A stretch of DNA of 45,330 bases from Bdellovibrionales bacterium (lineage in GTDB: Bacteria > Bdellovibrionota > Bdellovibrionia > Bdellovibrionales > UBA1609): positions 1-45,330 of the forward strand of contig JAHDIR010000021.1 in assembly GCA_020630675.1 (NCBI GenBank). Reading direction: 5' to 3'. Under the pieces are notes generated by a model. It saw only the letters and a program-made list of their open reading frames with translations, did not search any database and was not told where the DNA came from. Below are positions 5,899-11,512 of the stretch, one piece after another. Positions within the stretch are counted from its first letter, which is position 1; each line of letters starts with the position of its first letter. A program made the position numbers and the translations under genes.

Positions 5899-6327
5899 AT
5901 GAAAACATTTTCTCTTGAATATTTTTTTGAACCACTTATGGATGACCCAAGTTATTTTACAAAAAAAATGTTTGGTGGTCTTGCTGTTTATTTTGGTGGC
6001 TTAATGGTGGCAGTGATTTCTGAAAGTATAGGTGATCGTGAATGGAAGGGTGTCACATATAGTTATGATATATGGAATGGAGTTCTTTTTTGTACTAGCC
6101 GAGAGCATCATGATTCTTTGAATAGGTCTTTTCCTAGCTTTAAAAGTCATCCTATTTTAGGAAAATGGCTTTATTTACCAATGAGTGAAGTAGATTTTGA
6201 GGCTGAGGTTGTGAAGGTGGTAAAAGCAATCAGTCAATTCGATGAAAGAATTGGTATTGTGCCCGGAACTAAAAAGAAAAAATCAAAAAAGAAAAAAAGA
6301 TTGTCCAAGAAGAAAGTGAAAAAATAA
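5899..6327 (+). CDS. TfoX-N-domain-like small protein with lysine-rich tail
   Basis: 142 residues. The first part contains KKMFGGLAVYFGGLMVAVI, which matches the core of the TfoX/Sxy N-terminal domain (MFGG followed by a short beta hairpin). The rest is unlike the competence regulator Sxy. The last 22 residues are almost all lysine with a few serine and arginine residues, a basic tail that could bind nucleic acid. No catalytic motif is visible and the function is unknown. It follows the PLP enzyme by 55 bp on the same strand and converges on the beta-barrel gene, 28 bp away. Confidence 0.7.
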   Translation: MKTFSLEYFFEPLMDDPSYFTKKMFGGLAVYFGGLMVAVISESIGDREWKGVTYSYDIWNGVLFCTSREHHDSLNRSFPSFKSHPILGKWLYLPMSEVDFEAEVVKVVKAISQFDERIGIVPGTKKKKSKKKKRLSKKKVKK

Positions 6328-6355
6328 TATCTTTATAGAAAAGTATCTTCTTTGT

Positions 6356-6952
6356 TTAAAACGACCAGCCAAAAGCTACCTCTAGGGCTAGCTTTGTATG
6401 AACTCGAACTGTGGTTGTGCCAGATACACCATCAACTTTAATTTCAGCCTCATCATCTTCAAAGGCATGATTATACCCTAAACCAAAAGAAAAATTAAAG
6501 TGATCCCAAAACCATGTATAGCCTGTCATCGCTCCAATATAAGGAGTTGAAAAGCTGAGGTTGGCGTCGGTGCTAGAGTTTTTTAGTTCAACATTAAAAC
6601 TTAAAACTCCGCCATAAAGAGAGGTGTAAAAACTATCGGAAAGAGCGTCATTATAATACCAGTTGGCCTTGAGGTTTCCCCCCGAGGTTTTTATATCAAA
6701 GTCATAAATACCAGACTTAGTTTCAAATTTTCCGACTAAAACGGACCCTCCAAAAGTAAGGTGTTGTGACAGCCTGTACTCATAGCTGATATCTCCAAGA
6801 TTAATAAATAACCCTACGGAGTTGATTTTAAAATTATGGTTGTTAAGTGGATTATCTAAATTTACCTTAGGGTCTGTTGATAACTCTTGACCAAATGACA
6901 GCAAAGGGACAGTTAGAAATAATGTGATAAAAATAGATTTAATTAGTTTCAT
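6356..6952 (-). CDS. Outer-membrane beta-barrel protein
   Basis: 198 residues with a signal peptide (MKLIKSIFITLFLTVPLLSFG, cleavage near FGQ), then alternating hydrophobic/polar strands with many aromatic girdle residues and a C-terminal Phe (AFGWSF) as required for BAM-dependent insertion. The size suggests an eight-stranded barrel such as the OmpW or OmpA-barrel groups, but I cannot assign a family. The ATG lies one base from a 42-bp repeat that contains a TTGTAA-17-TAGAAT promoter on this strand, so the transcript would be leaderless or nearly so; no ribosome binding site is present. Confidence 0.78.
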   Translation of the reverse strand: MKLIKSIFITLFLTVPLLSFGQELSTDPKVNLDNPLNNHNFKINSVGLFINLGDISYEYRLSQHLTFGGSVLVGKFETKSGIYDFDIKTSGGNLKANWYYNDALSDSFYTSLYGGVLSFNVELKNSSTDANLSFSTPYIGAMTGYTWFWDHFNFSFGLGYNHAFEDDEAEIKVDGVSGTTTVRVHTKLALEVAFGWSF

Positions 6953-6953
6953 A

Positions 6954-6995
6954 GTAATATTCTATTAAAGTTGCGATGTTTTTACAAACAAGTTA
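6954..6995. repeat. 42-bp direct repeat, copy 1
   Basis: Identical base for base to 9731-9772. Sequence begins GTAATATTCTATTAAAG and ends ACAAACAAGTTA; the match stops sharply at both ends. It lies between the divergent beta-barrel gene and the small membrane protein gene and holds promoter-like boxes on both strands. Confidence 0.95.
6959..6987 (-). promoter_or_regulatory. Predicted sigma70-like promoter for the beta-barrel gene
   Basis: On the minus strand TTGTAA (6987-6982), a 17-base spacer and TAGAAT (6964-6959). Transcription would begin about 6 nt later, at or next to the ATG at 6952, giving a leaderless mRNA. Confidence 0.5.
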
Positions 6996-6999
6996 TATT
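6971..6999 (+). promoter_or_regulatory. Predicted sigma70-like promoter for the membrane module
   Basis: TTGCGA at 6971-6976, a 17-base spacer and TATATT at 6994-6999; the -10 box straddles the end of the 42-bp repeat. The predicted start leaves a leader of about 50 nt before the TTG at 7056. Confidence 0.5.
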
Positions 7000-7055
7000 G
7001 CCTAACAACAAATTTTCATTTATTAAAAACCAAGTAGAGTTTTTCAGGATTTATT

Positions 7056-7502
7056 TTGAGAGTTACAAATTTAATATTTAATTTATTTGTCAATAATTAT
7101 AAATCCAATTATGCACGTCGGGCAGTTATATTTTTTTTAATTATATATATAGGAATTTCTCAGCTCATATTACCAGCATTTAAAGTAAATGATTTTTTAT
7201 TTTTTTCAAGATGGTCAATGTTTGGCGCCACTAAATATAGAGTTTATGATTTGACATGGGATGGTGGTCAAACCTATTTATTTCGAGACCATAGAGCTGA
7301 ATATATGTCTTTAAATAAAAACCTTCGTATTTTATTTCACAGAGCTAAAAAAAATGATATTGCTTGGCTACGTAAAAACTTATCTGTTTTATATGTTATG
7401 TGTCGATGTAAAAAAATTAATCTAGTTCAATTAGATTCTACTTACAGAGAGCATATTCTCTTAAGAAAGCCAGCAAATACAATACAAACGATAAGCTTAT
7501 GA
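7056..7502 (+). CDS. Small membrane-anchored protein partnered with HTTM-like protein
   Basis: 148 residues, starting at TTG with AGGA six bases upstream. One clear membrane segment (about residues 23-43) is followed by FSRWSMFG and then a soluble part containing YDLTWDGGQTYLFRDH. I recall a similar W-x-MF-x motif just after a membrane helix in small proteins found next to HTTM/vitamin-K-carboxylase-like genes, but that is memory rather than a search. A CRCKK segment lies near the C-terminus. Its stop overlaps the start of the next gene (ATGA), which implies translational coupling and a joint role. Function unknown; the AT-rich, Phe/Ile/Lys-heavy composition resembles the rest of this three-gene module. 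Confidence 0.7.
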   Translation: MRVTNLIFNLFVNNYKSNYARRAVIFFLIIYIGISQLILPAFKVNDFLFFSRWSMFGATKYRVYDLTWDGGQTYLFRDHRAEYMSLNKNLRILFHRAKKNDIAWLRKNLSVLYVMCRCKKINLVQLDSTYREHILLRKPANTIQTISL

Positions 7503-8284
7503 CTAAATTTTTTTTTCAAATCTATCATTTAATATGGCTTGCTTTCTTAAGCTATAATGCTCGTTTTTTTGTAAATCAAAATCACTTTAATATTGAGTTA
7601 ACTATGTTTGCTAAACCTTTTTCCTATTTAGCAAACCCTGAAGTTTTATTTCCATTAGTATTTTTATTAACAGTGTCTTTGACACTATTTAATCTAATTA
7701 GACATAATTTGATAGTTTTTTCTCTCACAACCGTATGCTACTTGCTTTTATTTTCTTTAAAGCACTCCTTTGGTAAAATTGATCACAATATGCAGGGATG
7801 GATGGTTTTATCTGTCTTATTTTGTGGGTTAAATATTAAACAACCATTGAGCAGCTTTAGGAACCTTACAATAATTAGGCTAGGGCAGTGCTTATTGTTG
7901 TCTCATTATTTTTCCTCTGGATTATGGAAGGTTAGGAAAATGTTTAACTCTCCTCCAGATTCGATTTATAATTTAGGCTTAGAACATTTTGCAACAACTA
8001 TTGCTGGTGGCTCTGGAACAAGTTTGTTGATTGAAAATTTTTTTGTTGAAAATGATTGGCTATTAGGATTAGGTTTTATTATTGTTCTAATTTTTCAACT
8101 AACAGCTTTAATTCCTTTTTTTCTTAACAAATGGTACAAGGCTTGGGCTTTCGTGGCAGTTGGGTTTCACATAGTGACAGGTTTTTCATTAGCTATTTGG
8201 TTTAAGCCAACTATAATATCTTTAATTTTTTTACTCTATATAACTGAAGAGTTAATGACACACGAATCAAACAATGTTTCTTAA
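7499..8284 (+). CDS. HTTM-like multi-pass membrane protein
   Basis: 261 residues with about six hydrophobic helices. LSHYFSSGLWKVR around residue 140 and AFVAVGFHIVTGFSLAIWF around 220 match the layout of HTTM (horizontally transferred transmembrane) proteins, relatives of vitamin K-dependent gamma-carboxylase, which carry SGLxK and a histidine-bearing late helix. HTTM members are often found with DCC-family proteins; one occurs 3 kb away but not in this operon. The ATG overlaps the stop of the upstream gene by 4 bp. The stop codon overlaps that of the convergent GT-C-like gene (shared TTAA). Enzymatic activity is unproven. Confidence 0.68.
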   Translation: MTKFFFQIYHLIWLAFLSYNARFFVNQNHFNIELTMFAKPFSYLANPEVLFPLVFLLTVSLTLFNLIRHNLIVFSLTTVCYLLLFSLKHSFGKIDHNMQGWMVLSVLFCGLNIKQPLSSFRNLTIIRLGQCLLLSHYFSSGLWKVRKMFNSPPDSIYNLGLEHFATTIAGGSGTSLLIENFFVENDWLLGLGFIIVLIFQLTALIPFFLNKWYKAWAFVAVGFHIVTGFSLAIWFKPTIISLIFLLYITEELMTHESNNVS

Positions 8285-9672
8285 GTAGAATTGTGATTTT
8301 TTTTGATAGACAGTTCATGCCATACGAATCCAACAAGAAAGTAACCTGTCAAATAACATGGATATACATAATTAAACTGAGCAGCTGGCGCCAGAAAAAA
8401 AACAACGCTGGTTTTCAGTAAGGTGATTGCAGATAAAGCCGAAGAAATAGGTGTAACTCTGAATAAAAATAAACAAAAAAAGCACACAATTAATGATGGT
8501 AGGGCTGTATTAGAAAGTAAATAGAGGCCATGTTTTTTTGATTTTATATTATAAATTATTTTTTCACCTAAGGTAGAGTACTTTGGTTTTTTTAATTGAA
8601 CCCCGTAATCATAAAATATATTTTTTACAAATAAAGCTTTTGTATTAATCGATTTGAAAAAAAGGTTTTGAACAATACTTGTTGGTCCTTTTACACCAAT
8701 TATAGCAGTAAAGATTTTAACTCGATTTTCTATGAATAGCATCGGATTTCTAATAAATATTCTAAAACTCAGGCTTCTAAATGCGAAAAAATCTTGATCT
8801 GAGAAGCTGAGATGTGTTCTGCTAATAGGGTTAACACCATAATCATTTTGTTTGCTTAATAGTCGATCAATAGGAATGACTTTTTCTATTATTGATAATT
8901 GCTTCTCATCAAGCTGAGAAGTTCCAGTTTTTACCAAAATATAAGACAAGGGGTTGATTAATGCAGTTAGCTGATATCTTGGAGTGCCAAAAAAAAGAAT
9001 TTTAAAGCTGATGTTGCTCTTTTTAGTTATTATGAGAGACGAAAAAGTAAAAATTGTAACAAAAAAGAATAAGTTATATTTGATATTTTTTGATCTCCAG
9101 ATCAGGGCGCCGATTAATAAAGGAGTAACTAAAATATTTTCTTTTCTTATAAAGATATAAATAGTTATAAATATTAATATTTTCAAAGACCATTGTTTGT
9201 TCTTTTCATTGTTTCGAAAGTAAAATTTTGTACAAAAAAGTTTATAAAATTCAAAAAATAAAAAGGCTTGAATCCATGCCTGCCAGTAGTCACGAGATAT
9301 AATTAGATTTTGTAATAAAAATAATGGGTTCAAAGCTAGAGTTATTGCGAGGCAGTAAAAAAGTGACCTGTATTTTTGTGCACTCAATAGGTAAGAAAAA
9401 ATAAAAGCAAGTGTTATTGATGAAAAAAATATTTGAGTTAAACTAAAAATTGCTGGATGAAAAAGTATTGATAGGTTTAGTTCTAAAAATAAACTATAAA
9501 GCGGGCTTAACCAGGTGTGATGTCTATTGTGAAAAATTTCGTTTAGCCCAGAAAAAGTGTCGTATGTATATAGGCCTGGATAGCAAATGCAAAACAAAAT
9601 TAACATTGGAAGAAAAAAGGCTGTGAAAAAAATAAAGAAATTATACTTTTTTATATTTAGTCTGGTGATCAT
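8281..9672 (-). CDS. Multi-pass membrane protein, GT-C glycosyltransferase-like
   Basis: 463 residues with ten or more predicted membrane helices and many basic loops. After the first helix comes YPGLYTYDTFSGLNEIFHNRHHTWLSP, with an acidic residue on the first large loop followed by histidines. This is the arrangement in GT-C fold polyprenol-sugar glycosyltransferases and in the DUF6020-like group. A lipid-linked sugar transferase at the inner membrane is therefore plausible. It converges on the HTTM-like gene with overlapping stop codons and starts about 58 bp inside the second 42-bp repeat. The first ATG is used; TTAAGAAAAAAAA upstream is a weak ribosome binding site. Confidence 0.65.
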   Translation of the reverse strand: MITRLNIKKYNFFIFFTAFFLPMLILFCICYPGLYTYDTFSGLNEIFHNRHHTWLSPLYSLFLELNLSILFHPAIFSLTQIFFSSITLAFIFSYLLSAQKYRSLFYCLAITLALNPLFLLQNLIISRDYWQAWIQAFLFFEFYKLFCTKFYFRNNEKNKQWSLKILIFITIYIFIRKENILVTPLLIGALIWRSKNIKYNLFFFVTIFTFSSLIITKKSNISFKILFFGTPRYQLTALINPLSYILVKTGTSQLDEKQLSIIEKVIPIDRLLSKQNDYGVNPISRTHLSFSDQDFFAFRSLSFRIFIRNPMLFIENRVKIFTAIIGVKGPTSIVQNLFFKSINTKALFVKNIFYDYGVQLKKPKYSTLGEKIIYNIKSKKHGLYLLSNTALPSLIVCFFCLFLFRVTPISSALSAITLLKTSVVFFLAPAAQFNYVYPCYLTGYFLVGFVWHELSIKKNHNST

Positions 9673-9730
9673 AATTTTTTTTCTTAATTATTAAAGAAAT
9701 GAGTTTTTAGCTGGTTTGGCAAATAATTTT

Positions 9731-9772
9731 GTAATATTCTATTAAAGTTGCGATGTTTTTACAAACAAGTTA
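9731..9772. repeat. 42-bp direct repeat, copy 2
   Basis: Perfect copy of 6954-6995 in the same orientation, 2,777 bp downstream. Like copy 1 it lies between divergent genes (GT-C-like on the left strand, DUF457 protein on the right). The two copies bracket exactly the three-gene membrane module. Confidence 0.95.
9736..9764 (-). promoter_or_regulatory. Predicted promoter for the GT-C-like gene
   Basis: Same boxes as copy 1 on the minus strand: TTGTAA (9764-9759), 17-base spacer, TAGAAT (9741-9736). The leader to the ATG at 9672 would be about 57 nt. Confidence 0.4.
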
Positions 9773-9776
9773 ATTT
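9748..9776 (+). promoter_or_regulatory. Predicted promoter for the DUF457 gene
   Basis: TTGCGA at 9748-9753, 17-base spacer, TAATTT at 9771-9776. The predicted start falls within two or three bases of the ATG at 9785, so the message would be nearly leaderless, matching the lack of a ribosome binding site there. Confidence 0.45.
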
Positions 9777-9784
9777 GTAGATAT

Positions 9785-11014
9785 ATGGATAATCTCACTC
9801 ACAGTCTTGTTGGGTTTGCTGTGGCAAAAACTGCTCTTTACTGGTGGCCCAATCAAAAGAAAAAAAATCAACTTATTGCCCCACCTATATACTTTGTAGT
9901 GCTATCTATGGTGGCCGCAAGTTTTCCTGATTTTGATGTTTTATTGCAACTTTATAGCCCTACTAAACTCAATTACTTGATAACTCACAGAGGTCATACC
10001 CATTCCTTATGGGCTTTAATTCCCCAAGGGCTTGTTATTTTAGGAAGCTTTACTCTTTTTTTAAAATATAAAAACCTTGCTTTAACAAAAAGCCTTAACC
10101 TGTTAGCTGGCTTTTTGGTTTTTATAAACCTACTTTTGCATTTGTCCTTAGATTTTTTGAACAACTACGGGATTCACCCTTTTAGTCCTTGGAATAATAA
10201 ATGGTATTACGGGGATATGCTGCATATTATTGAGCCCTTACTATGGTTGGCTTTAATGCCCTTTGTGTTAAGGCAAATAACCGGTCGCACTTTTAAATAT
10301 ATTCTTCCTCTTTGTTTTTTGGTCGTTGTTTTTACTTTTGTAAAACTGGAATTTATGTCTTGGATCAACGCTGGCCTTGTTATTTTTATGTTTTTGGCTT
10401 TAGCAGCGGCTCATAGGTTTTTATCGCCGAAAAAGAGTTTACTGTTTTCTTGGGTTTTTACTTTTTTATTAGTTACAACCTTTTATACCTATAAACTATG
10501 GTCTGTTCATAAAGTGAATGATTACTTTTACAAAACCCAAGGTTTTGTTCCAAATGAAATTGTTTTGTCGGCTTTGCCCTCGAGTCCATTTTGTTGGGAA
10601 GTTATGGCCATAACTCTTACAAAAAAAAACTATCGGGTAGACCATGGCAATTTATCTCATTTTAATTTTCGTTGCCAAAGTTTTAAAAGTAAAAGTGGAC
10701 TTTCGTTAAATAAATCTCAATTAATTCAACAGAAAGGGTTAATATGGCAAGGAGAGTATCAAGTTGAAATTCAAGATTTGATGTCTGAATATTCAGCGAG
10801 TTGCAAGCTTCGCCACTGGTTTCAGTTTGCTAGAGTTCCGGTTAAAATAGCTGGACAGTATTCAGATTATAGGTACTCTTTAAAAAGTAAAGAAGATATC
10901 AGTGCTTTTAAAGTGATCAATGGCGACACAAATTGCCCTAAAATTAAAACTCATTGGACCCCTCCTCGCCAAGATCTTATTAATTATTTTTTAACGATGA
11001 ACAAAGAAAATTAA
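9785..11014 (+). CDS. DUF457/YdjM-family membrane-bound metal-dependent hydrolase-like protein
   Basis: 409 residues. The N-terminal half shows the family hallmarks: MDNLTHSLVGFAVAK at the start, SFPDFDVL near residue 45, HRGHTHSLW at residues 68-76 and a later HLSLDFLNNYG segment. These His/Asp motifs on membrane helices are why the family is annotated as a membrane-bound metal-dependent hydrolase. At least six helices occupy residues 1-230, and the remaining 170 residues look periplasmic. Family relatives include the LexA-regulated inner-membrane protein YdjM, but no reaction is established. No ribosome binding site precedes the ATG. Confidence 0.8.
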   Translation: MDNLTHSLVGFAVAKTALYWWPNQKKKNQLIAPPIYFVVLSMVAASFPDFDVLLQLYSPTKLNYLITHRGHTHSLWALIPQGLVILGSFTLFLKYKNLALTKSLNLLAGFLVFINLLLHLSLDFLNNYGIHPFSPWNNKWYYGDMLHIIEPLLWLALMPFVLRQITGRTFKYILPLCFLVVVFTFVKLEFMSWINAGLVIFMFLALAAAHRFLSPKKSLLFSWVFTFLLVTTFYTYKLWSVHKVNDYFYKTQGFVPNEIVLSALPSSPFCWEVMAITLTKKNYRVDHGNLSHFNFRCQSFKSKSGLSLNKSQLIQQKGLIWQGEYQVEIQDLMSEYSASCKLRHWFQFARVPVKIAGQYSDYRYSLKSKEDISAFKVINGDTNCPKIKTHWTPPRQDLINYFLTMNKEN

Positions 11015-11077
11015 ATAGATTGTTTTTGTAAAAAATGTTTATTTAAAGTTCAAAATCAAGAATAACGGAGAATAAAG

Positions 11078-11512
11078 TTGAAAGATTTTAAAAAAGGTAA
11101 AGAAATTGACTGGCCAGACAATGTTATTATTTACACCGATGGGGCAAGTCGGGGTAATCCAGGTGACGCCTCATTAGGTTTGGTGGTTTATGACGAAAAT
11201 AAATCTGATGTGTTTGAGTATGCCGAAAGCTTAGGAACACAAACAAATAACTTTGCCGAGTATATGGCTGTTGTTAAGGCTCTCCAGTTGTGTGTTGAAA
11301 ATGGAGTGAAAGGCTTAACTTTAAGAAGTGATAGTCAGCTATTGGTAAGGCAACTTCAAGGGCAATATAAGGTTAAATCCCCAGGGCTCAAACCATTATT
11401 TTTAAAATGTAAAGAAAGTTTAACTCAACTTTCACAAGTAAAAATCGAACATGTTCTTCGTGGCGATAACAAAAAAGCCGATGAATTAGCTAACTATGTC
11501 TTGGATTTTTAA
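11078..11512 (+). CDS. rnhA: Ribonuclease HI
   Basis: 144 residues with all four catalytic acids of type 1 RNase H: Asp21 in IYTDGASRGNPG, Glu61 in NNFAEY, Asp85 in LRSDS and Asp135 in KKADELAN. It cleaves the RNA strand of RNA-DNA hybrids in the cytoplasm, using two metal ions. The sequence is the shorter type without the E. coli basic protrusion, closer to the Sto/archaeal-like and Gram-positive ypdQ forms. The start is a TTG with GGAG seven bases upstream; no closer ATG fits. It precedes the RNase P RNA gene by about 130 bp on the same strand. Confidence 0.92.
   Translation: MKDFKKGKEIDWPDNVIIYTDGASRGNPGDASLGLVVYDENKSDVFEYAESLGTQTNNFAEYMAVVKALQLCVENGVKGLTLRSDSQLLVRQLQGQYKVKSPGLKPLFLKCKESLTQLSQVKIEHVLRGDNKKADELANYVLDF

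Follow-up and report, generated by a model that had tools for sequence, protein, structure and literature searches.

A perfect 42-bp direct repeat around three membrane-protein genes in a Bdellovibrionales genome suggests an insertion with spacer duplication

In the 45,330-nucleotide stretch of DNA analysed here (hereafter the window), from an uncultured member of the Bdellovibrionales, two identical 42-bp sequences lie in the same orientation on either side of three genes coding for membrane proteins. The best reading, which we hold with slightly better than even confidence, is an insertion that left a duplicated intergenic spacer around the three genes. Such an insertion had been proposed in a first-pass annotation of the window, and it is backed by the perfect and unique repeat, by G+C steps, by the sporadic occurrence of the enclosed genes and by their absence from the locus in two congeners. 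Two other parts of that annotation, the ancestral gene order and the unity of the three-gene module, are not supported.

Results

A unique direct repeat between divergent genes

The locus reads as follows, the 463-aa gene being convergent with the two genes before it.

6356..6952, - strand: 198-aa predicted outer-membrane-barrel-like protein (barrel call by inspection only; no Pfam match)
6954..6995, + strand: 42-bp repeat, copy 1, between the barrel gene (-) and the 148-aa gene (+)
7056..7502, + strand: 148-aa membrane-anchored protein that pairs with the 261-aa protein; starts with TTG, preceded by AGGA
7499..8284, + strand: 261-aa multi-helix membrane protein, its gene overlapping the 148-aa gene by 4 bp
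8281..9672, - strand: 463-aa polytopic membrane protein, with two paralogues elsewhere in the genome
9731..9772, + strand: 42-bp repeat, copy 2, between the 463-aa gene (-) and the YdjM/DUF457 gene (+)
9785..11014, + strand: 409-aa membrane protein of the YdjM/DUF457 family (PF04307), its leaderless-like start lying 12 bp from copy 2
11078..11512, + strand: RNase H-like protein, direct divergent neighbour of the barrel gene in two congeneric genomes, G002 and G003

Both copies carry GTAATATTCTATTAAAGTTGCGATGTTTTTACAAACAAGTTA on the + strand, are identical at 42/42 positions and lie 2,777 bp apart, start to start, each between divergent genes, just as first described. When stretched to 47 bp they match at 45/47 positions, the five bases to the right reading TATTG in one copy and ATTTG in the other (two differences); there is no leftward extension. 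The 42-mer is the sole exact direct repeat of at least 18 bp within the window, and the chance expectation for such a pair in 45 kb, estimated from the window base composition, is about 1e-15. The first-pass annotation had called for a genome-wide search. In the own assembly (3.1 Mb, 110 contigs, 99.9% complete), only these two sites were found with up to 3 mismatches allowed, so that the 42-mer is not common genome-wide. The three remaining genomes of the genus, searched with a 23-bp core at 3 mismatches, gave no copy, nor did GTDB genomes and viral contigs give an exact one. Likewise, no repeats were found bracketing homologous genes in other genomes, or bracketing the two 463-aa paralogues in the own genome.

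These searches weigh on two explanations that dispense with an insertion. The repeat could be a regulator-binding or otherwise functional site of one regulon, kept identical by selection, as the two divergent spacers that hold it lie in front of four genes for membrane or envelope proteins. However, the 42/42 identity includes bases between the promoter-like boxes, which selection would hardly fix, the central 24-bp core gave the same two sites only in the own genome (up to 3 mismatches), and the 42-mer has no stable fold and is missing in the congeners; we regard this explanation as improbable. An assembly artefact, i.e. a misjoin of a metagenome-assembled contig at a repeated k-mer, comes to mind with an assembly in 110 contigs, congeners that are MAGs, and a perfect repeat that bounds a change in composition. 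Yet a misjoin needs the 42-mer at other sites, of which the assembly has none, and current assemblers usually resolve repeats of 42 bp, which makes an artefact highly improbable.

G+C content changes at the repeats

The enclosed genes have 27-30% G+C, against 35-37% for the outside genes (barrel, YdjM, RNase H), YdjM alone being at 34.6%. Along the sequence, G+C is about 35% outside the copies and 25-32% in the stretch that they enclose, with the steps at the repeats. Homologues were used as controls: the paralogue of the 463-aa protein on contig C40 has 26% G+C, and the homologous 148/261-aa gene pair of genome G001 has 28-30% in a 32% contig. Because these genes are low in G+C as well, the low value is partly a trait of the families, and the step alone is no proof of foreign origin.

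The enclosed genes form two independent units

The three genes had been taken for one module. Their distribution contradicts this: two independently distributed units stand side by side here, and the 148/261-aa pair and the 463-aa family co-occur in no other genome of the class. Five further genomes of the family have the pair with its genes adjacent; only G001 has them in reversed order. Its surroundings differ by genome, with dioxygenase-like, asparagine-synthetase-like or phosphosugar-isomerase-like genes (labels by inspection). It is thus sporadic in Bdellovibrionales and occupies different loci (window 7056-8284; L039 305-1554; L056-L060). In G061:C9 (L057 2629-2993), the homologue of the 261-aa gene is interrupted close to its 3' end, at a point overlapped by two 55-bp direct repeat pairs; a tandem duplication or an assembly fault could account for this. 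The 463-aa family counts three members in the own genome; elsewhere in the class it was found in three genomes, and in relatives it lies at other loci. The paralogues of the window gene (G000:C40:154553-155956 and G000:C104:234637-236058) are diverged, with about 30% and 22% identity.

The 148-, 261- and 463-aa window proteins could not be named from Pfam or NCBIfam, no relative of theirs turned up among the solved structures searched, and no PDB, PHROG or PADLOC match yielded a function. Neither the insert nor the 463-aa protein matched plasmids, and the 261-aa protein had no match in phages. Judged by eye, the 463-aa protein resembles glycosyltransferases of the GT-C type, and the 261-aa protein resembles membrane proteins of the HTTM type. 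Single-sequence structure models of both were poor (mean pLDDT of 42 and 49, respectively). Elsewhere in the window, about 2.3 kb from the insert, lies a DCC1-like thiol-disulfide oxidoreductase gene (PF04134, 4365-4760), which has the lowest G+C of the window (26.8%); DCC1-like genes often accompany HTTM-type membrane proteins.

The locus in related genomes

The 198-aa barrel-like protein has homologues in G002 (48% identity) and G003 (35%). Both genomes keep the order of barrel, RNase H, purple acid phosphatase-like, methyltransferase-like and carboxylase genes, and in both the barrel and RNase H genes are immediate divergent neighbours with a short spacer between them. At this locus they have no YdjM/DUF457 gene, no 148-, 261- or 463-aa gene and no 42-mer, and their barrel genes have Shine-Dalgarno leaders (AGGAG before a TTG start in G002, AAAGG before ATG in G003). 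Outside the genus, 16 genomes were checked up to 1.5 kb from the RNase H gene, and none showed the barrel-RNase H pairing.

The ancestral layout first proposed, a barrel gene and a DUF457 gene around one shared promoter, is seen in neither congener; in both, barrel faces RNase H, YdjM and the 42-mer are absent and barrel has its own Shine-Dalgarno leader. It can only be an intermediate, which is seen in no available genome. The comparison with relatives, suggested as a check for an empty site, gave a split answer: the insert is indeed absent in G002 and G003, but YdjM is missing too, and searches of the genus, of GTDB genomes and of viral contigs turned up nothing with just one copy of the 42-mer. 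Since the congeneric locus is without YdjM, this gene, which is outside the insert proper, would also be a lineage-specific gain, or would have been lost in both congeners. The lineage of the window thus appears to have altered the sequence immediately ahead of its barrel gene and to have gained the three genes.

Three candidate links were set aside. A YdjM locus near carboxylase genes in genome G024 was considered as the ancestral place of YdjM, but its carboxylases are only 33-46% identical, against 74-83% for the orthologues of the genus, and RNase H is not adjacent there. The 42-mer shows marginal similarity to the barrel-RNase H spacer of G002 (p about 0.04, one of six tests), and its similarity to the RNase H leader is not significant.

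The main rival starts from these same genomes. The whole four-gene block (the pair, the 463-aa gene and YdjM) may have entered the barrel/RNase H spacer, the 42-bp promoter being copied later by duplication or gene conversion and displacing the Shine-Dalgarno leader of the barrel gene. All four genes are missing in both congeners, and the barrel gene has a Shine-Dalgarno leader in the congeners and none in the window. Nevertheless, YdjM is at the G+C of its neighbourhood, in contrast to the three genes, and the repeat sits at the composition boundary between them and YdjM. Because this boundary separates insert and YdjM, we disfavour block entry and consider it rather unlikely.

Start codons and promoter-like boxes

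The barrel ATG is 1 bp from copy 1 and the YdjM ATG 12 bp from copy 2. Both starts (MKL... and MDN.THS) fall at the same residue as in homologues, so these distances are sound. With a simple motif test, no Shine-Dalgarno motif was found before either start, while the same test found one in 21 of the 41 larger ORFs of the window. The first description of the outer genes, close to the repeat and without ribosome binding site, therefore stands, as do the distances of 58-60 bp for the inner genes, which start 60 and 58 bp away from their respective copies. Conserved starts of this kind would fit leaderless-like outer genes. Literature searches gave nothing on leaderless Bdellovibrio transcripts with a bearing on the locus.

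Three box pairs resemble promoter elements:

6971..6999, + strand: TTGCGA-17-TATATT, copy 1, toward the 148-aa gene (consensus matches at 4/6 and 5/6 positions)
6959..6987, - strand: TTGTAA-17-TAGAAT, copy 1, toward the barrel gene, with some 6 nt between the end of the -10 and the ATG
9736..9764, - strand: TTGTAA-17-TAGAAT, copy 2, toward the 463-aa gene

The boxes are present as the first-pass annotation wrote them. Their value as promoters holds up less well, in that the second + strand box of copy 2, TAATTT, agrees with TATAAT at 3/6 positions only, below the threshold that copy 1 passes; elements above the threshold thus occur in both directions in copy 1 and in one direction in copy 2. 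Moreover, 24 boxes of this quality were found in 6300-11100, against 21 +/- 5 in shuffles, i.e. no enrichment over the AT-rich background. The boxes plausibly fit a two-way promoter. Because their quality is not above the shuffle background, the argument is positional: the spacer is divergent, and some 6-8 nt separate a -10-like element from a start codon that has no Shine-Dalgarno motif.

Discussion

We propose that low-G+C DNA with three membrane-protein genes entered the short spacer (about 55 bp) between barrel and YdjM, and that 42 bp of this spacer were left on both sides of the insert. The event would be fairly recent, since the copies are identical at 42/42 positions. When the outer flanks are joined at one 42-mer, a 55-bp barrel-YdjM spacer results, near the size of the short barrel-RNase H spacers of the congeners. 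YdjM itself would probably have been gained earlier, at the ancestral divergent spacer between barrel and RNase H. Two routes may be envisaged: repair of a staggered break with captured DNA, duplicating the target, or integration, by a single crossover, of a circular molecule that had the 42 bp in common with the spacer. The spacer probably holds two opposed, overlapping promoters; each copy would then serve one gene on either side. The outer gene would yield a leaderless or near-leaderless mRNA and the inner gene an mRNA led by about 50-60 nt, which would wire in the insert and leave both outer genes intact. Promoter activity, the one-copy intermediate and the recombination mechanism are all things that we infer. 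What counts against the insertion reading is that no genome with a single 42-mer turned up in the searches above, that low G+C is partly a family trait, and that the boxes do not rise above background.

No recombinase, transposase or integrase gene was found between the repeats, nor terminal inverted repeats, and the window has no tRNA gene. With transposase, integrase, inverted ends and tRNA all missing, no standard mobile element is indicated. A transposon or IS does not fit, with neither transposase nor terminal inverted repeats and a duplication of 42 bp; target duplications of transposons and IS are short, about 2-14 bp, and 42 bp to our knowledge exceeds those of known bacterial transposons. 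Nor does an integrative element fit, with no integrase between the repeats and no tRNA in the window. One may speculate further on transposase-free gene gain, a compact bidirectional leaderless promoter serving as docking sequence for circular DNA that shares the 42 bp, so that each insertion duplicates the promoter and old and new genes are expressed at once; we regard this idea as very unlikely.

The locus offers a clean snapshot of how new genes may be slotted into a short divergent spacer with neither neighbour silenced: if the promoter reading holds, duplication of the spacer lets every gene keep a promoter. Should both promoter activity and the one-copy ancestor be true, this would be a simple path for wiring in acquired genes without a mobile-element enzyme. 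As footprints of gene gain go, it is otherwise tidy and rather ordinary; a single case without parallel in related genomes is an anecdote.

Comparison with known systems

The YdjM protein of the window matches the YdjM/DUF457 family (PF04307) over residues 1-187 (E 8.7e-26) and has an additional C-terminal part of about 220 residues. Like HTTM-type proteins, the 261-aa protein has several predicted helices, together with a conserved SHYFxSGLWKxR-like motif; it differs from them in having no Pfam, NCBIfam or PDB match, the resemblance being by eye only. Divergent bacterial promoters with leaderless transcripts likewise have opposed box pairs in a short spacer, and -10-like elements about 6-8 nt from conserved starts without Shine-Dalgarno. 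Here, by contrast, the spacer with its putative promoters is duplicated, and each copy also faces a leadered inner gene. Finally, compared with insertions flanked by direct repeats, through target-site duplication or Campbell-type integration, the present repeat is long for a transposon and is not a tRNA end, and transposase, integrase and terminal inverted repeats are lacking; what the locus shares with them is foreign-looking DNA held between identical direct repeats of the target.
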